This document shows positions 501 through 9,072 of a stretch of 10,455 nucleotides of DNA, piece after piece. The stretch's first letter is position 1. Each line of letters starts with the position of its first letter. This DNA comes from Eubacterium sp. (GTDB lineage Bacteria > Bacillota > Clostridia > Lachnospirales > Lachnospiraceae), in contig JAFSTZ010000374.1 of assembly GCA_017445525.1 (NCBI GenBank), positions 1 to 10,455 on the forward strand, read 5' to 3'. The notes under the pieces were generated by a model. The model was not told where the DNA came from, searched no databases, and saw nothing but the letters and a program-made list of their open reading frames with translations. The translations under genes were made by a program, and so were the position numbers.

Positions 501-578
501 CGGGACGGGCGTTCGCAGATGTTTTGTGCGAGCTTTAGATGCTCGGCACAAAACATCTGTCGAACATCAGCCGTCCCG
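501..578. repeat. Long imperfect hairpin between the EAL gene and the Nudix gene
   Basis: The arms pair as CGGGACGG (501-508) with CCGTCCCG (571-578), GTTCG (511-515) with CGAAC (561-565), CAGATGTTTTGTGC (516-529) with GCACAAAACATCTG (546-559), and GAGC (530-533) with GCTC (541-544), around a 7-nt loop. That is about 31 paired bases with small bulges. Neither side has a T-tract, so it is not a classic intrinsic terminator. It lies 24 bp after the stop of the EAL gene and about 58 bp before the Nudix start. It may be a 3'-end or processing structure, or a copy of a dispersed palindromic repeat. Confidence 0.75.
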
Positions 579-601
579 GCTCCTGACTTATCAGTCTCTG
601 A

Positions 602-3600
602 TTACTCAACTATATCAACCGCCTCATCATTGATCGTAACCTGAAAACGAGCGTCTGCAAGTCTTGCCACATCACGTCGTGTCACGAGACCCCGTTCCGC
701 TTCAGTCCTGATCCTGATCAGCGTATCGGAGTTATGAACATCTATATCCGTTTTTCCATCGATTCCGCCAAAGACCAGCGCCTGTTTTCCGCGCCCGTCA
801 ACTCTCAGTCCGGTATAGGCCATCTTCACCTTTGTATCGCCCCTGATCGATCCCATAGCTGTCGATCTGTCTCCCCTGACAGTCAGGGCCAGACCGGCAT
901 TCTCTACCTCAACCGATCCCATCTTTCCGTCCACGGTACCGATATTCACCACTTCGTTGCCGCCAATCATACTCTTTACTGAGCTCTTGGTAATATACGT
1001 CTTTGAGTTACCCTCCAACGAACCGATGCAGACACCTTTATACAGAGAGAACTCAGTCCCGATAGCACAAGACGATATCCTCAGATCACTGTCACCGCTC
1101 ACAGCACCTATACCCACGCACTCATCGGAGTTTACATCCAGGAAGAACTTACCTCTGCGTATATGCGTCTTGCCGCCGTGTCCGGAGCCTATGCAGACGC
1201 CCTTCTTTCCGGACGTCTCTATGTATATCTCTCCATCCTGCTCAAAGATTATCTCCCCATGATTTGACAAAAGATCATTTCCTATACCGTAATACTCCTC
1301 CATATCCAACTTGATCTTGAGATCTCCGTTGCCCTCGATGACAAGTCTGGACGTCCTCGGCACTCTTATACCTCCGCGCCTTAACACATTCTCCCCACGG
1401 AACACCAGTGTAACATCCGTATTCTCACCCAGATCGATACACGGATTTCCTTTTGCATTGGAAAAATATACGTTTTCCAACGTCAGAACACCGGTATAGT
1501 TCGGTGCTATGTGCATGTGCAGATCGGTCGTCACACCCGGTGTACCGGTAAATGTCACATCACGGCATGTGGGATTATCCTCACCGACCACGATCTCCGA
1601 ATATCCATTCTTCACCAGAGTACTGAGAGCAACCCTCACCGTCCTTCCGGCTCTGTAGCTGCGCTTGGTCAAACCGTTTCTGCGTTCCTTGTCATAGGTA
1701 ACGATCTCTTTCTTTATAGACTCACCGACTTCTGTTATCAGATCCGGCGCCGGTCTCGCTGTATAGTAACCCTGGATCAGATCCGCTCCTAAGTGTATAA
1801 CCATACGCAGCTCTTCGGACGTTTCAACACCCTCAGCCAGAGCCATGATCTTGTTGTCATGACAGAAATCGATGATCTCACGCACAAAATACTGCTTCTG
1901 TGGTTTGTTCTGTATATCGCTCAGCAGCGATCTGTCTATCTTGACATAATCGGGCATATATCGCAGAAGATTCGATACATTTGAGTATCCTGTACCATAG
2001 TCATCCACCGCGATCTCTATCCCTTTACTCCTGAGATAAGCCTTTACCTCATCCAGATCCTCCTCAGAAAGCTCAGCCTCCTCAGTCATCTCCACGACGA
2101 TATTCCCGGCATGCTTGTCCAGTGCCCTGTCTACCTTGACAGAAGTCGACTCATCAAGCTTAACTCCGGGGATACTATTTATAAAAATCTTCCTGTCACC
2201 GAAAATAAATGACTTATCTTCTACTATCTTCAATACGTTTAAAAATGTTGCCCTCTCGATATCCATAAGCCTGCCCATCATCCCACCGTATCTGATGATG
2301 GCAAGAGGAGATATACGTCTGTCCGTGGTGGATCTCATCAATGCCTCATAGGAGTAGATCTCACCATCCGACACCCTCACGATAGGCTGGAAGTGATAAG
2401 TAAGGAGATTTTGATCGAGTATCCTCTCGACCATATCATAGTCAACCTTTTCCTCCCCCGAAAGCTTATCTGCAGGCCTGACAGTAGCAAACCTCCTGGA
2501 TTCTATACTCTTTTTTTCAAACACGCGAAGCCCGACATTTCTACGAAGCGCCTCAAGCGATCGGGACAGAAGTATCACCCAGTCTCTATAGATTTTATCA
2601 TATGTCTCAGGCTTATCTCCGTAGTTTACCACGAGATAACCGAAGCATTCATCCTCGAAAAACACGGGCGTGAAATAGTAAACAGTTGCTTCCCTCCTGA
2701 GTCCCAGACCCGGCAGCATCTCCCCGACATCAAAGAAATCATCTATGCTTACCTGTCCGTCGCTTCCGTCCCTGTGATACTCAACAGCATGCAGGATGCG
2801 ATTCTCGTAGCCGTCATTTTTACAATGCACCGAATCCTCATAATCCATATCAGCCCAAGATGAGTTCAGACACAGATGCACCTCCTCTGCTTTCTCTATC
2901 TGATAGGCATATGCGTAAACCGTTCCCAGAAAACTCAGCAGATTGTTCTGGATCATCAGATCATCGCCCATGAAGTTATTGATAGACTCGAAACCGTCAT
3001 CTGAAAGCTCGGTTCCCCAGGTCTTTCTGAGCGTCAGCTCATGTCCGAGAGTGCACTCTTCATCAGGACATCCACAGCTTGGTCCTATGACCATCTCGGC
3101 ACGCCCGGTAAACTCCTGCACCTCGCGTCCCTTAAGCTTGGAAATGATATAATCCGCTGCGTAGATACCGCAAAGTCTCGCCGCCACCACCGCTGATGTG
3201 AGCGGCACCGGACAGGTCTGCCCCTCATAGGTCGAGTCAAACCCGACTACCGCGACATCCTCAGGCACTTTATATCCTTTTCTCTCGAGCTCCTCACAGA
3301 CGCCTATCGCCATCTGATCGTTGGCACAGGCTATAGCCTCCGGCAATCCCTTCTCAGTAGCCAGAAGCTGTTCCACACAGAGTTCTCCGCTCTTGTACCA
3401 GAAATCGCCGTAGAATATCCTGTCATCCGACACCGTAAGACCATGCTTTTTCATAGTCTCTTTGTACGCCTCCAGCCTCTGCTTGGAATGCGGGTGCCAC
3501 TCTTTACCCGTTAAAAATGCTATGTCCTTGTATCCGTGCTTCAATATAAGATGTTCTATCAGATCCACTATGGGAGAATATCCGTCAGTACAAACCGAAT

Positions 3601-3928
3601 CAAAGAAAAGACTCTCCTGCTCGATCACGAGCACAGGTCCCGCAAATCTGTCATGTATCTCCTGCTCCAGTCTCGCGGCTATCCCCTTGGTCTGTATGGT
3701 ATCCTTGAGCATCACGATACCGTCAAACCTGTCATAGTTCACAAGCTGATAGATATTGGACTCGCCGAGCTCTCTCTCCGGAGTCGACTGGTATTTTCTG
3801 TACATGGAAAAAACGCAGACATCCATATCCGCTTTCTTCATCTGTGTCAAAAGCCCATTCAAAAAACGCTTCTGATATTCCTCATCAGCCTGACCTATAA
3901 GCACAGCTATCATCTCATGCTTAGCCAC
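602..3928 (-). CDS. Multidomain EAL c-di-GMP phosphodiesterase with LacI-type sensor and C-terminal solenoid-like domain
   Basis: A protein of about 1108 aa, numbered from GTG 3928. Residues 5-280 form a LacI/Peripla_BP_3-type sugar-binding fold (IAVLIG start, IACANDQMAIG, VVGFDST) that ends in the SCGC motif common after such cytoplasmic sensors. There is no HTH and no signal peptide. Residues about 305-480 look GAF-like (weak). Residues 496-735 are an EAL domain with its expected catalytic residues: E528-A-L, N584, E613, D642-D643, K663, E699-G-V-E702 and Q719. It should therefore hydrolyse c-di-GMP to pGpG. No GGDEF domain is seen. Residues about 752-1085 are rich in beta-strands, with roughly seven units carrying IGS/IGx...G motifs, resembling carbohydrate-binding beta-solenoids normally found outside the cell. 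An in-frame GTG at 3964 would add 12 residues but lacks a well-spaced ribosome site. It follows coaBC by 103 bp with no terminator, so co-transcription is possible. Ligand and solenoid role are unknown. Confidence 0.92.
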   Translation of the reverse strand: MAKHEMIAVLIGQADEEYQKRFLNGLLTQMKKADMDVCVFSMYRKYQSTPERELGESNIYQLVNYDRFDGIVMLKDTIQTKGIAARLEQEIHDRFAGPVLVIEQESLFFDSVCTDGYSPIVDLIEHLILKHGYKDIAFLTGKEWHPHSKQRLEAYKETMKKHGLTVSDDRIFYGDFWYKSGELCVEQLLATEKGLPEAIACANDQMAIGVCEELERKGYKVPEDVAVVGFDSTYEGQTCPVPLTSAVVAARLCGIYAADYIISKLKGREVQEFTGRAEMVIGPSCGCPDEECTLGHELTLRKTWGTELSDDGFESINNFMGDDLMIQNNLLSFLGTVYAYAYQIEKAEEVHLCLNSSWADMDYEDSVHCKNDGYENRILHAVEYHRDGSDGQVSIDDFFDVGEMLPGLGLRREATVYYFTPVFFEDECFGYLVVNYGDKPETYDKIYRDWVILLSRSLEALRRNVGLRVFEKKSIESRRFATVRPADKLSGEEKVDYDMVERILDQNLLTYHFQPIVRVSDGEIYSYEALMRSTTDRRISPLAIIRYGGMMGRLMDIERATFLNVLKIVEDKSFIFGDRKIFINSIPGVKLDESTSVKVDRALDKHAGNIVVEMTEEAELSEEDLDEVKAYLRSKGIEIAVDDYGTGYSNVSNLLRYMPDYVKIDRSLLSDIQNKPQKQYFVREIIDFCHDNKIMALAEGVETSEELRMVIHLGADLIQGYYTARPAPDLITEVGESIKKEIVTYDKERRNGLTKRSYRAGRTVRVALSTLVKNGYSEIVVGEDNPTCRDVTFTGTPGVTTDLHMHIAPNYTGVLTLENVYFSNAKGNPCIDLGENTDVTLVFRGENVLRRGGIRVPRTSRLVIEGNGDLKIKLDMEEYYGIGNDLLSNHGEIIFEQDGEIYIETSGKKGVCIGSGHGGKTHIRRGKFFLDVNSDECVGIGAVSGDSDLRISSCAIGTEFSLYKGVCIGSLEGNSKTYITKSSVKSMIGGNEVVNIGTVDGKMGSVEVENAGLALTVRGDRSTAMGSIRGDTKVKMAYTGLRVDGRGKQALVFGGIDGKTDIDVHNSDTLIRIRTEAERGLVTRRDVARLADARFQVTINDEAVDIVE

Positions 3929-3933
3929 TTTTT

Positions 3934-3938
3934 CCCTC
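3934..3938 (-). promoter_or_regulatory. Shine-Dalgarno site deciding the GTG start of the EAL gene
   Basis: On the minus strand GAGGG is followed by AAAAA and then GTG at 3928. The 5-nt spacing is good, and the encoded protein then begins (V)AKHEMIAVLIG, directly at the first strand of the sensor fold. The GTG at 3964 has its nearest purine-rich run (AGGGGAG) about 15 nt away. The downstream start is therefore preferred. Confidence 0.6.
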
Positions 3939-4031
3939 GCCTTTCCATACGCCTGCCGTACCACTGTCCGATCGCATATCTCCCCTGTCGACCATCGGAG
4001 CGACGACCTACGTATCTGTCATCCTTGACTT

Positions 4032-5234
4032 TTACCTATCCCGTAACCTTTCCCCGATAGCACCGAGAATCTCATCCGCCGCATCATCCTTGCTCATCAG
4101 CGGAAGTTCTCTTACGCCATCTGCCGTTATGATAGTAATCACGTTTGTATCTCCGCCGAATCCCGCTCCGTCAACTTTGAGATTGTTCGCAACTATCATG
4201 TCGGCATTTTTCTTTGCAAGCTTATCCTTTGCCCGCTCTACCAGATTCTCCGTCTCCATCGCAAAACCGCAGATAAACTGCCCTGCCACCTTGTTCTCCC
4301 CGAGCCATGACAGTATATCCGTAGTCCTCTTTAACTCAACCTGCATGCTGTCATCACTCTTTTTGATCTTCTCATCAGACACCACCGCAGGTGTATAGTC
4401 GGCAACCGCTGCCGCCTTTATCACTATATCGCTTCCGGAAAAATGCTCCCGCACTGCCAAAAACATATCCTCCGCAGTTTCAACATGCACAGTCTCTACC
4501 CCGACCGGATCCGGAAGACTCTCCGTGCCCGAGATGAGAGTCACATCCGCTCCCCGTCTCCAAGCTGAGGCTGCTATCGCATATCCCATCGTCCCCGTAG
4601 AATGATTGGTGATATACCTGACCGGATCAAAGGGTTCCCTTGTAGGTCCGGCAGTCACTACAACTTTCTTTCCACGCAAATCATTTTTCTCTTCAATTGA
4701 TCTGTATAGATACTGAAGCAGAACGCCCGTATCCGGCAGTCTCCCCCGTCCGGTAACACCGCAGGCAAGCCGTCCCTCATCGGGCTCTATTATCTCGTAT
4801 CCGTATCCCTTAAGTCTTCTGAGATTGTCCTGCAGCACAGGCTCATCATACATCCCGGTATTCATAGCCGGAGCGACAAGCTTCGGACACTTGGCAGCCA
4901 TGACCGTAGTCGTCAGCATATCATCGGCTATACCGCAGGCAAGCTTTCCGATGATGTTTGCCGTAGCCGGAGCGATGATACATGCATCCGCCCTTGACGC
5001 AAGTGATACATGCTCTATATTGAAGTTGAAATCCCTGTCAAATGTATCAACAAGACATTTATGTCCCGTCAATGTCTCAAAGGTTATGGGGTTTATAAAA
5101 TTGACTGCATTTTCAGTCATGATCGTAAAAACATCGCAGCCCTTTTTTACAAGTGTGCTCACCAGATCCGCCGCCTTATAAGCCGCTATGGAACCGGTCA
5201 CCCCGACTATAACTGTTTTATCCTTTATCTGCAT
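4032..5234 (-). CDS. coaBC: Bifunctional phosphopantothenoylcysteine decarboxylase / phosphopantothenate-cysteine ligase
   Basis: It carries out two steps of CoA synthesis: ligation of cysteine to 4'-phosphopantothenate (CoaB), then FMN-dependent decarboxylation to 4'-phosphopantetheine (CoaC). The N-terminal CoaC half (numbering from ATG 5234) shows the flavin-binding GSIAAYK at 14-20, the active-site His75 in NIEHVSLASRAD, the PAMNTGMYD motif at 122-130 and the substrate-flap Cys158 in ACGVTGRGR. The CoaB half begins near residue 188 with VVVTAGPTREPFDPVRYITN, then has KAAAVADYTP, the AMETENL segment and IVANN. About 400 aa is the normal family length. A TTG at 5261 would add nine residues, but ATG 5234 gives the typical MQIKDKTVIVGVTG start, with AAGGAG about 12 nt upstream (rather far). 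It follows panC by 81 bp, a sensible pathway pairing. Cytoplasmic. Confidence 0.96.
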   Translation of the reverse strand: MQIKDKTVIVGVTGSIAAYKAADLVSTLVKKGCDVFTIMTENAVNFINPITFETLTGHKCLVDTFDRDFNFNIEHVSLASRADACIIAPATANIIGKLACGIADDMLTTTVMAAKCPKLVAPAMNTGMYDEPVLQDNLRRLKGYGYEIIEPDEGRLACGVTGRGRLPDTGVLLQYLYRSIEEKNDLRGKKVVVTAGPTREPFDPVRYITNHSTGTMGYAIAASAWRRGADVTLISGTESLPDPVGVETVHVETAEDMFLAVREHFSGSDIVIKAAAVADYTPAVVSDEKIKKSDDSMQVELKRTTDILSWLGENKVAGQFICGFAMETENLVERAKDKLAKKNADMIVANNLKVDGAGFGGDTNVITIITADGVRELPLMSKDDAADEILGAIGERLRDR

Positions 5235-5315
5235 GAGATCACGAATCTCCTTCTCAACCAAAGATGTATACCGTCCTGCTCATCCATGCACCGCACAGGT
5301 CGTAACGCTTTAAGT

Positions 5316-6164
5316 TCAGCCTATGATAAAGTTATCTATAAGCCTGGTCTTCCCTATGTATACTGCAACCGCAACAAGTGTGTTGCCCTCTATACGTGCA
5401 ACCGGCTCGATACTGTCAAAGTCGACAACCTCAACATAGTCGATCTCCGCCAAAGGCTCCGCATCTATGATACCACTGATAGTCTCCTTGACTACCATCG
5501 CATCCGTCTCGCCTGCCTTTATCTGCTCCTCGCCTGCCGTCAATGCTTTATGCAGTACTATAGCGGCCTGTCTCTCAGTCGGCGACAGATACGTGTTTCT
5601 GGAGCTCTTTGCCAGTCCGTCCTCCTCACGTATGATCGGACATCCAACTATCTCCAGATCAAAGTTCAGATCTCTGACCATGCGTCTGATGACAGCCAGC
5701 TGTTGTGCATCCTTCTGTCCGAAGTACGCCCTGTCAGGAGCGACGATATGAAACAGCTTTCCGCAGACAGTACATACTCCCCTGAAGTGTGTCGGTCTGG
5801 TCTTGCCGCAAAGATTTTTAGTGACCTTATCCATATCTATAAATGTGCAGAAATCATCCGCATACATATCGGATGGTTCGGGATGAAAGATCAGATCGGC
5901 CCCTGTACTCTCACAGAGTTCCGTATCACGTTTCATATCCCTGGGATAGGTTGCCAGATCCTCGTTCGGTCCAAACTGTATAGGATTGACAAACACCCTT
6001 ACAACCGTCTTATCGTTCTGCTCGACACTCTTTTGTATCAGGCTCTGATGCCCCTCATGCAGATATCCCATGGTAGGGACCAGTCCTATGCTCAAGCCCT
6101 CGGCTCTCCACTTCTTTACCTGATTTCTGACCTCGACCGGATCCGAAACTACATTTATAGCCAT
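5316..6164 (-). CDS. panC: Pantoate-beta-alanine ligase (pantothenate synthetase)
   Basis: It condenses pantoate with beta-alanine using ATP, via a pantoyl-adenylate, to give pantothenate (vitamin B5). The 282-aa length is typical. Class-I-synthetase-like motifs are intact: VPTMGYLHEGH with H36 and H39 (HIGH-like), VRVFVNPIQFGPNEDLATYP, THFRGVCTVCGKLF, FGQKDAQQ (148-155) and KSSRNTYLS (186-194, KMSKS-like). The ATG at 6164 has a textbook GGAGGT Shine-Dalgarno sequence 8 nt upstream and a consensus promoter about 37-65 bp upstream. It is the first gene of a probable panC-coaBC transcript. panB and panD are not in the window, so pantoate and beta-alanine must come from elsewhere. Cytoplasmic. 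Confidence 0.97.
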   Translation of the reverse strand: MAINVVSDPVEVRNQVKKWRAEGLSIGLVPTMGYLHEGHQSLIQKSVEQNDKTVVRVFVNPIQFGPNEDLATYPRDMKRDTELCESTGADLIFHPEPSDMYADDFCTFIDMDKVTKNLCGKTRPTHFRGVCTVCGKLFHIVAPDRAYFGQKDAQQLAVIRRMVRDLNFDLEIVGCPIIREEDGLAKSSRNTYLSPTERQAAIVLHKALTAGEEQIKAGETDAMVVKETISGIIDAEPLAEIDYVEVVDFDSIEPVARIEGNTLVAVAVYIGKTRLIDNFIIG

Positions 6165-6354: not shown

Positions 6355-6383
6355 TTGCCATCCATGAAAATATGTATTATAAT
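6355..6383 (+). promoter_or_regulatory. Sigma-A promoter of the DUF2752 gene, predicting a leaderless mRNA
   Basis: TTGCCA (6355-6360), a 17-bp spacer and a perfect TATAAT (6378-6383). The expected transcription start, about 7 nt past the -10 box, coincides with the ATG at 6391. The longer in-frame starts at 6355 (TTG) and 6364 (ATG) lie inside the promoter, so they would not be transcribed from it. Confidence 0.7.
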
Positions 6384-6390
6384 CAGGATC

Positions 6391-6864
6391 ATGAAAACTG
6401 ATACCTGCTTTTACGTCATATCGTGGATCATCATGATCGGTCTCGTCGTGATAGGAATACTGCATCACACGGGGCTTTTCACGCCGACCGATGACCTCGT
6501 CTTCCCCTGCTTCTTCAGAAGTGCCACGGGACTGTACTGCCCAGGCTGCGGCGGCACACACGCCGTGATCTCACTTGTCGAGGGGCATCTGACAGACAGC
6601 TTTTTGGCGCATCCGATCATACTGTATGTGACTGCCTGCGCCCTTGTCGACATATCCGCAAATACCGTAAGTCTGATAAGATCCAAACTTTCAACACGGT
6701 CATGTGACAAGGATGAACATATACAGGCCGGACAGCCAAAACATCATCACGAGGCATCTGCATCTCCGTATGTCCTCCACTTCAGGATGATATATCTATA
6801 TGTAGGCATTGCCATACTTTTCATCCAGTGGATCATAAAAAATATCCTACTGCTTGCTGCGTAA
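6391..6864 (+). CDS. DUF2752 family small membrane protein
   Basis: A 157-aa protein with three hydrophobic segments (about residues 8-28, 72-93 and 132-152). Between the first two lies the DUF2752 signature: a Cys40-Phe-Phe segment, then TGLYCPGCGGTHA (Cys50, Cys53), then a short helix and the AHPIILY segment. The closely spaced cysteines and CPGCGG suggest a metal or thiol role, but the family has no established function. A hydrophilic loop at about 101-127 contains a histidine cluster (HHH at 118-120), which is not part of the core domain. Translation is placed at ATG 6391 because the promoter covers all upstream starts. No good Shine-Dalgarno sequence precedes it. It is the only plus-strand gene here. 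It diverges from panC and overlaps the response regulator gene at its 3' end. Confidence 0.85.
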   Translation: MKTDTCFYVISWIIMIGLVVIGILHHTGLFTPTDDLVFPCFFRSATGLYCPGCGGTHAVISLVEGHLTDSFLAHPIILYVTACALVDISANTVSLIRSKLSTRSCDKDEHIQAGQPKHHHEASASPYVLHFRMIYLYVGIAILFIQWIIKNILLLAA

Positions 6865-7632
6865 CGCCTCACGAGTCGGTTCTGCCCAGGCATACTGCGA
6901 CAGATATTCATCGGCGTTCTCCGCCCCCGATATCTTTCCGTCCAGATAATCATAATAATCACAGGACAACCCGGTCTTATCTATACCGATCACTCCTCTC
7001 CTGCGCACTATGATATCATCAGCACCGTACTTCTTCAGTGTCGAAGTCAGATCTGATATCAGATTTCTCAGATAGGAGGCATGCGAACCGGAGCCCTCAT
7101 CATCCTGCCACAGCATCTCGATAAGTCTTGCATTTGTCATCACGTTTCCGCAGGCATCGATCAGCACAGCCAGTAATTCCTTGCTCTTTTGATATAAAAA
7201 TGTTACCGCCTGCCCCTCTATAAAAAGTCCAAATTCTCCGAAAGTTTTTACTATTATATGGTCTTTAGCGCTTTCCACCGGAAACCTGAGATGTTCGAGC
7301 TCCTTCTTCAGCTTATCCGGTGTCACCGGCTTCATGATATACCCGCTTGCATGTATATCAAAAGCATCCTCCATATATTCTTTATAGCCTGTTGTAAAGA
7401 TGATATTTATCCGAGGATTCTGCTCTTTCAGCTTGCCGGCCAGTTCGATACCGCTTATCTCACGCATCTCTATATCCAAAAATGCGACATCTGCAGGCTT
7501 GTTCTCTGTATCCTCAAGAGCCTCAGAAGGATCTCTGAAACCTCTCACCGCCGCTCCCGGAACCGCTTTTTTCAGTCCGTTCAAAACGCCCTCGAGAGCC
7601 AGACTCTCATCATCAACCGCAATAATATTCAT
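6847..7632 (-). CDS. Response regulator: receiver domain plus OmpR/SARP-like winged helix
   Basis: A 261-aa cytoplasmic DNA-binding regulator. The receiver domain (1-120) has the acidic pair D7-D8, phospho-acceptor D53 in AFLDIEM, T80/T81 in IFTTGY and the conserved K101-P in YIMKPV. It should therefore be phosphorylated normally. From about residue 126, VKTFGEFGLFIEGQ opens a Trans_reg_C/SARP-like winged helix (strands, then KSKELLAVLIDACG, ARLIEMLW, YLRNLISDL and a wing near VRRRGVIGID). About 40 residues follow. The cognate kinase is almost surely the gene 123 bp upstream. That kinase is LytS-like, and such kinases are classically paired with LytTR-type regulators. The ATG at 7632 is preceded by GGGAG at short spacing. 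The last 18 bp overlap the oppositely transcribed DUF2752 gene. Target genes are unknown. Confidence 0.92.
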   Translation of the reverse strand: MNIIAVDDESLALEGVLNGLKKAVPGAAVRGFRDPSEALEDTENKPADVAFLDIEMREISGIELAGKLKEQNPRINIIFTTGYKEYMEDAFDIHASGYIMKPVTPDKLKKELEHLRFPVESAKDHIIVKTFGEFGLFIEGQAVTFLYQKSKELLAVLIDACGNVMTNARLIEMLWQDDEGSGSHASYLRNLISDLTSTLKKYGADDIIVRRRGVIGIDKTGLSCDYYDYLDGKISGAENADEYLSQYAWAEPTREALRSKQ

Positions 7633-7705
7633 GTTCTCCCACTATCCTTTCTACTTGTAGTTTGACTAAGCCATTTTTCCTATGCTCTATCTCCCAAGCC
7701 AGAAT

Positions 7706-7755
7706 GCTTGCTGCTTGACCTGATAGTAAACTCAGAAAGCCTCATCGTAGCAAGC
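7706..7755. other. Weak intercistronic inverted repeat between kinase and regulator
   Basis: GCTTGCT (7706-7712) is complementary to AGCAAGC (7749-7755), which abuts the kinase stop codon. A small CTGA/TCAG stem can form in between. There is no T-tract, so read-through to the regulator is expected. A 7-bp repeat with a 36-nt spacer could be chance. Confidence 0.3.
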
Positions 7756-9072
7756 TTATCTCGGTATGGTTATGTACGCTTCGCAGCCGTTTCCCGGACT
7801 GCTTATGATATTCAGACTCCCGTCACACATAAGCCGGAGACGTTCCCTGACATTTTTTATCCCTACATGACGCCTTTGCCTGCCGCCATCATCACTTAAT
7901 ATCTCTTCCTGCTCATCCTGACCCTTGTCGTCCACACTTTCAGGCTCAAATCCCACACCGTCATCCTTTACATAAACCACATATTCATCTTCGGTAGCGT
8001 AACTGCCGATACTGACAGTCCCCCCATCCTTTTTATGGCCTATGCCGTGCCTGACCGCATTCTCAACTATGGGCTGAAGCGACAACGCCGGAATCCTTAT
8101 CTCTTCTAAAACCTCTCCCTTCTCTATCATCAGCTGCTCCTGAAACCTCATCTTCTCCAACTTCAGATATGTATCCACATGCTCCATCTCATCTTTCAGA
8201 GAGATCAGTCTCGAGGTTTCCAAGCTCTCAAGATTTGCCCTTAAGTATTCCGAGAAGTCTCCGACCGCTTCCTGTGCCTGTTTCGGATCCTTCTCACACA
8301 ACACATATATTGAGTTCAGCGCATTGAACAAAAAATGCGGCTGAACCTGTGAGATCATGATCCTTATCCTGTCATCCGCGATTATAGCCTCCTGACGCCT
8401 GACTCTTTCACCGTTTTCCAGATCGATGATGATATGCATCAGCACCATAGTCAGAGAGAACAGCAAAACAACCACTGACTGTATCTTGAAGATCGAACGT
8501 ACTACTACTCCTATGATCGGGCACAGGCTGAATGATATAATCACCGTCATATTCTGTCTGCTTATCCCCTCGCCGTAACGCTTGATCATCACCACAACGA
8601 GTATGACTATGAAGTATCCTCCCAGCTGTCCAAGCGCATACAGCGGTCCCGGAACCATATATCCATCCTCAATCTTGAAGAGGATACCATTTATAACTGA
8701 AAGTATCCAAAGTATCGTAAAAACTATGCAAACTACTAACGACGCGATCGTATAATACCTGGGAACATTCCTGTACTGTCCGATATACTTTCTCACGTAC
8801 ACGATAAAGAAAAACAGCGTCATATAATATGCGATAAAACACACGATGATCGCTATGTCGGAAGGCTTCACACCACTGTTTTCCGGCATTTCATATCTAT
8901 ACAACAGATGATGAAATATATCGGAAACGACCATGATGATCGCCGACAGCTGTAGGTTAAGAAAGCTGGCGTGCTTCAGAATCCCCATCCTCTTCTGTAT
9001 GATGTCTTCGGCAAACATATACACCAGGATCACAGCGGCATATATCTCCACCCACATCTCAACATATCCCAT
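7756..9072 (-). CDS. LytS/YpdA-type sensor histidine kinase with seven TM segments
   Basis: A 438-aa membrane sensor. About seven hydrophobic segments (7-22, 36-52, 72-94, 108-131, 146-164, 176-194, 198-217) form the sensor, followed by a short linker and a His_kinase (PF06580-type) domain. Phospho-acceptor H246 sits in QVQPHFLFNALNS. An ATPase domain follows, with N338 in PIVENAVRHGIGHK, the DDGVGF box at 370-375, an unusually acidic lid (about 377-395) and GIKNVRERL near 404-412. No PAS or large extracellular domain is seen, so the signal is probably membrane-embedded or small. The ATG at 9072 has a strong GGAGG site 6 nt upstream. It is the first gene of the kinase-regulator pair. It lies downstream of a terminator, so it should have its own promoter, although I see no convincing -35/-10 pair. 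Confidence 0.93.
   Translation of the reverse strand: MGYVEMWVEIYAAVILVYMFAEDIIQKRMGILKHASFLNLQLSAIIMVVSDIFHHLLYRYEMPENSGVKPSDIAIIVCFIAYYMTLFFFIVYVRKYIGQYRNVPRYYTIASLVVCIVFTILWILSVINGILFKIEDGYMVPGPLYALGQLGGYFIVILVVVMIKRYGEGISRQNMTVIISFSLCPIIGVVVRSIFKIQSVVVLLFSLTMVLMHIIIDLENGERVRRQEAIIADDRIRIMISQVQPHFLFNALNSIYVLCEKDPKQAQEAVGDFSEYLRANLESLETSRLISLKDEMEHVDTYLKLEKMRFQEQLMIEKGEVLEEIRIPALSLQPIVENAVRHGIGHKKDGGTVSIGSYATEDEYVVYVKDDGVGFEPESVDDKGQDEQEEILSDDGGRQRRHVGIKNVRERLRLMCDGSLNIISSPGNGCEAYITIPR

Follow-up and report, generated by a model that had tools for sequence, protein, structure and literature searches.

Enzymes that make or break cyclic di-GMP (c-di-GMP) are commonly sorted by the sensor that stands in front of the catalytic part. 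The EAL phosphodiesterases (PF00563), among them BlrP1 and DosP, have such a sensor ahead of an EAL domain of recognisable fold and catalytic residues. The protein described here is like them in all of these respects and departs from them behind the EAL domain. Its gene lies in a stretch of 10,455 nucleotides from Eubacterium sp. (Lachnospiraceae; assembly GCA_017445525.1, contig JAFSTZ010000374.1), probably an inhabitant of gut or rumen, hereafter the window, and encodes, from N- to C-terminus, a LacI-type ligand-binding domain, a middle domain, an EAL domain and a solenoid. The Pfam and NCBIfam EAL models listed end by residue 736, but the window protein has an extra ~350 residues, predicted to be a C-terminal beta-helix. 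Listings of the open-access literature yielded no account of EAL joined to a beta-helix or solenoid, nor did a tested function come to light for any relative. The reading we favour, with a probability of about 0.6, is that of a ligand-gated cytoplasmic c-di-GMP phosphodiesterase carrying a recruited beta-helix of surface type as a partner-binding or positioning module.

Each end of the protein has counterparts elsewhere. LacI-GGDEF proteins of the same genus (L022-L036) share its head of LacI and middle domains, a CxC motif and several pocket residues, but they end in an intact GGDEF domain, for synthesis, where the window protein ends in EAL and beta-helix, for breakdown. In a review of c-di-GMP sensing, LacI-like Periplas_BP is named as one of the putative sensory domains with sugars as possible ligands (PMC8846402). 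Secreted and S-layer proteins with glycine-rich beta-helices (PF18889) have coils related to those of the tail and aligned in register with them; they differ in having signal-peptide-like N-termini and, in some, SLH or Ig-like domains, none of which the window protein has, and its tail is by eye less glycine-rich. The beta-helix of the Lactobacillus reuteri SRRP adhesin (5ny0), an extracellular protein, has 11% identity and is not singular, many other beta-helices lying within a few Z units. Cthe_2159 (PF14262) is also a beta-helix; the family's tail profile (A1) gave a weak match (0.042) to 4peu, which we take to be Cthe_2159, and PF14262 matched none of 12 members at E up to 5. Cthe_2159 is reported to be a biomass binder of Clostridium thermocellum, and proteins of its type to be beta-helices binding cellulose and acid sugars (PMC6712302); an adhesin beta-solenoid cluster is related to Cthe_2159 and SRRP (PMC9210967).

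The AlphaFold2 (AF2) model of the tail is an all-strand solenoid with a mean local confidence (pLDDT) of 94.4 and a predicted template modelling score (pTM) of 0.90, as expected from an earlier note, made from the DNA letters, which had seen a repeat-rich C-terminal solenoid. Foldseek returned nothing for the tail at E <=0.001; VIA-align, which re-ranked Foldseek's own list and covers only the families on that list, gave right-handed parallel beta-helices. An IG-type step can be followed by eye through seven coils of the window protein, 27-31 residues apart, five of them IG and the last two MG and FG. Neither Pfam nor NCBIfam matched the tail (residues 740-1108; C-terminal 374 residues).

The kin of this tail are found at the cell surface. 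Twelve regions around weak A1 matches were examined, and 11 contained a frame matching at E <=0.01, the exception being L139, around a frame of 4946 amino acids (aa). By eye, nine of the 11 frames have signal-peptide-like N-termini; the start of L146 is ambiguous, and L148, by its start and match, seems to belong to the LacI-headed part of the family itself and to have a short tail. PF18889 (Beta_helix_3) matched three of five kin proteins scanned, one of them under the cut-off, and SLH domains were present in two of the five. The window protein has no PF18889 match and, by hydropathy, no hydrophobic N-terminus. The family tail aligned in hhalign with 12 surface-protein segments, five from one protein and all picked for matching A1, at 98.9% probability (2.8e-17, 153 columns, in register); the family alignment reversed, as a control, gave 23.3%. 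By these profile comparisons the tail is related to the glycine-rich beta-helices of secreted and S-layer proteins. Fold and distribution, rather than a rooted tree, suggest that transfer ran from surface to cytoplasm. A secreted-type protein of 2474 aa in L138 (1260-8684, minus strand) has six stretches matching the family's tail profile.

Such kinship raises the question of whether the beta-helix might be a cytoplasmic glycan receptor, whose binding of a polysaccharide, intracellular or still being made, would localise or gate the breakdown of c-di-GMP, carbohydrate then being read at both ends of the protein. Polysaccharide-modifying enzymes, tailspikes and adhesins account for many of the nearest folds, the sequence kin are surface proteins, and the binding of cellulose and acid sugars reported for Cthe_2159-type proteins points the same way. 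Five polar residues conserved at 72-93% (N884, D885, S888, H890, Q897) are, by eye, unlike the secreted type. A common fold is no proof of function, however, the 4peu match is weak, and no recurring glycan-synthesis gene was seen nearby in the clustered loci. We regard a glycan receptor as unlikely.

The EAL domain and the beta-helix go together. Pfam found EAL in all 33 family members scanned (33 of 41 central proteins), and it is present in all 120 relatives among the matches listed, beyond which there were 24 further matches. What precedes it varies. The heads of 153 proteins, assigned by length, alignment and hand-made transmembrane (TM) and NUDIX lists, comprise 93 LacI, 16 LacI with GGDEF, 31 short (~85 residues), five other heads with GGDEF, four with paired N-terminal TM peaks and four NUDIX, two of which also have GGDEF. 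The idea that the short heads are a LacI relic was unsupported (hhalign probability 0.8%). The EAL and beta-helix tree was made from the 153 proteins minus those >=80% identical to a kept one; on its 119 units head type changes at least six times, one change (P0027) probably reflecting a gene cut short. It was built quickly, is unrooted and has no bootstrap, so gain and loss of heads are indistinguishable in it. EAL and beta-helix are the constant unit across these changing heads and, since the solenoid occurs behind other heads, it belongs with the EAL domain and not with the LacI sensor. The earlier note had an intracellular ligand setting c-di-GMP breakdown while the solenoid anchored, oligomerised or bound a polysaccharide-like partner; sensor, catalytic set and solenoid were all seen, but the solenoid is tied to the enzyme.

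The same note had presented the architecture as unfamiliar, yet it is not rare. Alignment A4 against GTDB representatives gave at least 590 matching stretches, and in 72 of the best 80 loci the frame, measured from stop to stop, is >=1050 aa long. The other eight meet a contig end (L180, L202, L221, L230, L233), end early internally (L205, L214) or encode 1019 aa (L211). The loci are labelled Lachnospiraceae, Ruminococcus, Eubacterium, a Saccharofermentans metagenome-assembled genome and others, many from rumen, omasum or abomasum. Strain records with the gene include Ruminococcus albus KH2T6 and AR67, R. flavefaciens YL228 and Lachnospiraceae bacterium AC2031 and NC2004. In a census with A1 (E <=0.001) the tail was present in 32 of 397 genomes of the family (24 of them at E <=1e-40), nine of 295 of the order (three strong), 17 of 391 of the class (13 at E <=1e-38) and three of 299 of the phylum (the third weak, 1.8e-5), the source genome and G239 being counted again at each of these levels. 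Among 8000 scored candidates there are at least 11 shorter A1 proteins, three with EAL and eight (190-396 aa) with none listed; these eight are likely cut or split genes, some beginning inside the tail or being named partial. P0127, of 325 aa, has beta-helix coils by eye apparently in odd order at its start, possibly an effect of assembly.

Conservation along the tail is uneven. Mean column identity per 20-residue block is 0.53-0.66 in residues 741-940 and 0.36-0.51 beyond. The frames of L018, L019 and L020 end early, with no tail coding seen in the three downstream frames; L018 and L019 are without the distal ladder and L020 keeps only part of that ladder's first coil, and the final strand of L018 and L019, unlike that of L020, resembles the last strand of the full form. 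The tail of L148 stops after 108 profile positions, while the apparent shortening of L017 is a contig end. Because these naturally shortened forms retain the coils next to EAL, those coils look like the core of the domain and the distal coils, judged from the alignments, like a variable extension. A dispensable ladder of varying coil number and weaker distal conservation would also suit a part that does no more than help this EAL subfamily to dimerise, fold or stay stable and that has no partner outside the protein, and the EAL catalytic residues are kept in L130 and L131, the two aligned loci of this short type. Against such a modest role, a domain of ~350 residues with a high-confidence model and conserved residues, found with five head classes, seems costly. 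We think this rather unlikely, and slightly more so than the glycan receptor.

The direction of the enzyme is indicated by the EAL domain itself. PF00563 matched at 2.5e-50 (171.5 bits against a curated cut-off of 31.3), and E528, N584, E613, D642, D643, K663, E699 and Q719, which we take to bind metal and substrate, do not vary across the alignment of all 121 proteins, made up of the window protein plus the 120 relatives mentioned above. The full catalytic set read from the DNA alone is thus borne out. Some EAL proteins, such as LapD and FimX, work as receptors. Both are among the Foldseek neighbours of the full model, and the EAL domain could be a c-di-GMP receptor or trigger, with the beta-helix as output; receptor EALs are not known to keep all eight residues, however, and the identity of these residues throughout the aligned proteins makes this highly improbable.

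A GGDEF-sized insert stands ahead of EAL in 17 members of alignment A2, and Pfam called GGDEF in 16 of the 33 scanned members. The canonical motif is at the aligned place in none of the 17 GGDEF-like segments (nearest are GSDEF, GNDEF and GVDEF). By contrast, all but one (L038) of the 16 LacI-GGDEF sisters from the same genus have it intact; L037, not being LacI-headed, was left out of the sisters. The window protein has no Pfam match to GGDEF, the domain that would make it a LacI-GGDEF diguanylate cyclase. This comparison of motifs suggests that the EAL and beta-helix family has breakdown only, and its members look like dedicated phosphodiesterases. A LacI-GGDEF gene adjoins the LacI-EAL-beta-helix gene in L175 (3854-5785; by Pfam) and L208 (upstream; by similarity and motif), possibly as a synthesis and breakdown pair. 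A third relative, in L231, is without the motif. The source genome has one copy of the gene, 21 GGDEF matches above cut-off and two PilZ matches, the last two of which indicate a c-di-GMP network. A search for c-di-GMP-I riboswitches found none there and none in 14 control genomes either, and is hence uninformative.

The open frame is uninterrupted on the minus strand from 602 to 3964. A GTG start at 3928, with GAGGG 5 nt upstream, gives 1108 aa, the length also of the nearest relative, P0001; alternative starts are GTG at 3964 and ATG at 3913. The source genome is fragmented (461 contigs), which might have allowed assembly to fuse two genes, a worry voiced in the earlier note, but the long frames in 72 of the best 80 loci, strain records included, have already refuted it. 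Hydropathy in 19-residue windows peaks at 1.37 in the window protein, never reaching 1.6, and by this measure there is no signal peptide, as had been claimed, or TM segment. Among 33 members, 29 have no TM peak and four a paired N-terminal one, a topology that fits the cytoplasm.

The N-terminal domain matches Peripla_BP_3 (PF13377) at residues 129-272 (4.9e-26, 92.2 bits against a cut-off of 26.5). Its phmmer matches are chains of CcpA, LacI and RbsR, and Foldseek with the full model finds CcpA, a LacI ancestor and RbsR at 3.9e-13 to 1.6e-12. Pfam found no helix-turn-helix (HTH) in the window protein, and the ligand domain's first beta-strand is where the frame opens; the protein thus lacks the N-terminal HTH that marks a LacI-family transcription factor. 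The match, the fold and the frame start agree with the LacI-type sensor without HTH proposed at the outset. Conservation was read from 85 LacI-EAL proteins of >950 aa out of the 121 aligned. Seven residues do not vary (K45, Q47, R151, D175, S180, C285 and C287), the pocket positions K45, Q47 and R151 among them, and Y46, H145, H147, W177, Y178, N203 and D204 are 96-99% conserved (N203 0.98, D204 0.99 and W177 0.99, also at pocket positions). R151, F176, N203 and D231 presumably correspond to effector contacts of LacI. The near-invariance of the pocket suggests one conserved class of ligand. The 16 LacI-GGDEF sisters share Y46, R151, W177, N203, D204 and, in every row having a residue at that place, the CxC motif, and diverge at positions 45, 47, 147, 178 and 180. 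From this pattern we infer one conserved ligand for each class, the two related yet not identical. The role of the CxC motif is possibly structural, metal-binding or redox.

Pfam matched nothing between residues 285 and 495. The secondary structure predicted for the middle domain fits the GAF-like region of the earlier note, but profile searches gave no confirmation: there was no Pfam match in the window protein and no convincing PDB profile match, and GAF_2 matched one of the 33 family members, at E 0.0093. In the AF2 model a long helix (445-479) closes the domain and leads into EAL. The favoured phosphodiesterase would thus work as follows. The LacI-type domain would bind a small, probably sugar-like metabolite, the signal would travel via the middle domain and long helix to EAL, and EAL would hydrolyse c-di-GMP. 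The beta-helix, of surface-protein type and recruited into the cell, would act for the enzyme and not for the sensor, its likeliest role being that of a rigid module for partner binding or positioning.

Several points weigh against this account. The reading of the pocket leans on presumed roles of LacI residues, and D231 is conserved in just 85%. The full-length AF2 model has a pTM of 0.47, so that the domain arrangement cannot be read from it. The distal half of the beta-helix, being less conserved, may be a passive spacer. Tail proteins with no listed EAL exist, one of them (P0129) on a contig of 149,823 bases, and L113, with a TM hairpin, has a third, unexplained hydropathy peak at 863, within the tail. 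No recurrent partner gene emerged from clustering the neighbours of 41 or of 80 loci (flanks up to 3 kb). The make-up of domains, the conservation of the catalytic set, the kinship of the tail and the steady pairing of EAL with beta-helix are well supported; catalysis, gating by a ligand, the place in the cytoplasm and the role of the tail are deduced from sequence and models.

Coordinates of the features in the window
Feature	Position	Strand	Basis
Whole coding sequence, 1108 aa + stop	602..3928	minus	Open reading frame list and sequence
LacI-type ligand-binding domain, residues 1-285, no HTH	3074..3928	minus	Pfam PF13377/PF00532; phmmer; Foldseek
CxC motif, residues 285-287, end of LacI domain	3068..3076	minus	C285 and C287 in 85/85 LacI-EAL proteins
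Middle domain (GAF-like in its predicted secondary structure), residues 320-479	2492..2971	minus	AF2 full-length model
EAL domain, residues 501-726	1751..2428	minus	Pfam PF00563; alignment with BlrP1 3gfx
Linker helix, EAL to beta-helix, residues 736-750	1679..1723	minus	DSSP on AF2 models
C-terminal beta-helix, residues 757-1108	605..1660	minus	
Regular ladder of IG-type steps, ~residues 880-1075	704..1291	minus	Alignment A1; absent from natural short versions
NUDIX gene, directly downstream of EAL gene	3-443	minus	
Very strong hairpin between EAL and NUDIX genes	505-580		-58.4 kcal/mol for 490-600, z -8.2
panC-coaBC, directly upstream of EAL gene	4032-6164	minus	
Response regulator	6847-7632	minus	
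Histidine kinase	7756-9072	minus	

The biggest neighbour clusters are ABC ATPases (12 of 41 and 8 of 80 loci) and GGDEF/EAL-type proteins (7 of 80), all names being read by eye other than L168, confirmed by Pfam. The 41-locus clustering used the longest frame per place and missed some genes, and most of its smaller clusters are in L116 and L118-L122, of one genus. The NUDIX gene in the window resembles the fused NUDIX heads of P0113, P0114, P0117 and P0119 at 30-39% identity; tblastn at 1e-8 found no NUDIX relative in 43 loci, which leaves a functional partnership as no more than a lead. The hairpin that separates it from the EAL gene has no obvious T-run. Conserved partnership with panC-coaBC was likewise rejected, the upstream order recurring only in L129 and L135, with the contig of L137 too short to judge. 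A DUF2752 protein is encoded on the plus strand within 6355-9072. In R. albus (L193, 6407-9025) a FIST-EAL gene lies downstream of the family gene, and a similar one occurs in L195 and L203 (Ruminococcus).

What stays constant in this family is the large domain that follows EAL, kin to surface beta-helices and with no Pfam or NCBIfam match. Should a glycan-binding beta-helix of the surface have moved to the cytoplasm and joined EAL, one end would sense an internal metabolite and the other would bind a polysaccharide that is intracellular or still being made; carbohydrate status would be read twice and c-di-GMP destroyed at the location of the glycan. This version is slightly more doubtful than the stability element. 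The LacI-GGDEF sisters, with the same type of sensor, give a synthesis and breakdown pair useful for finding the ligand. As the gene occurs in many rumen-type bacteria, with strains including R. albus and R. flavefaciens, local control of c-di-GMP by a positioning domain is directly testable.

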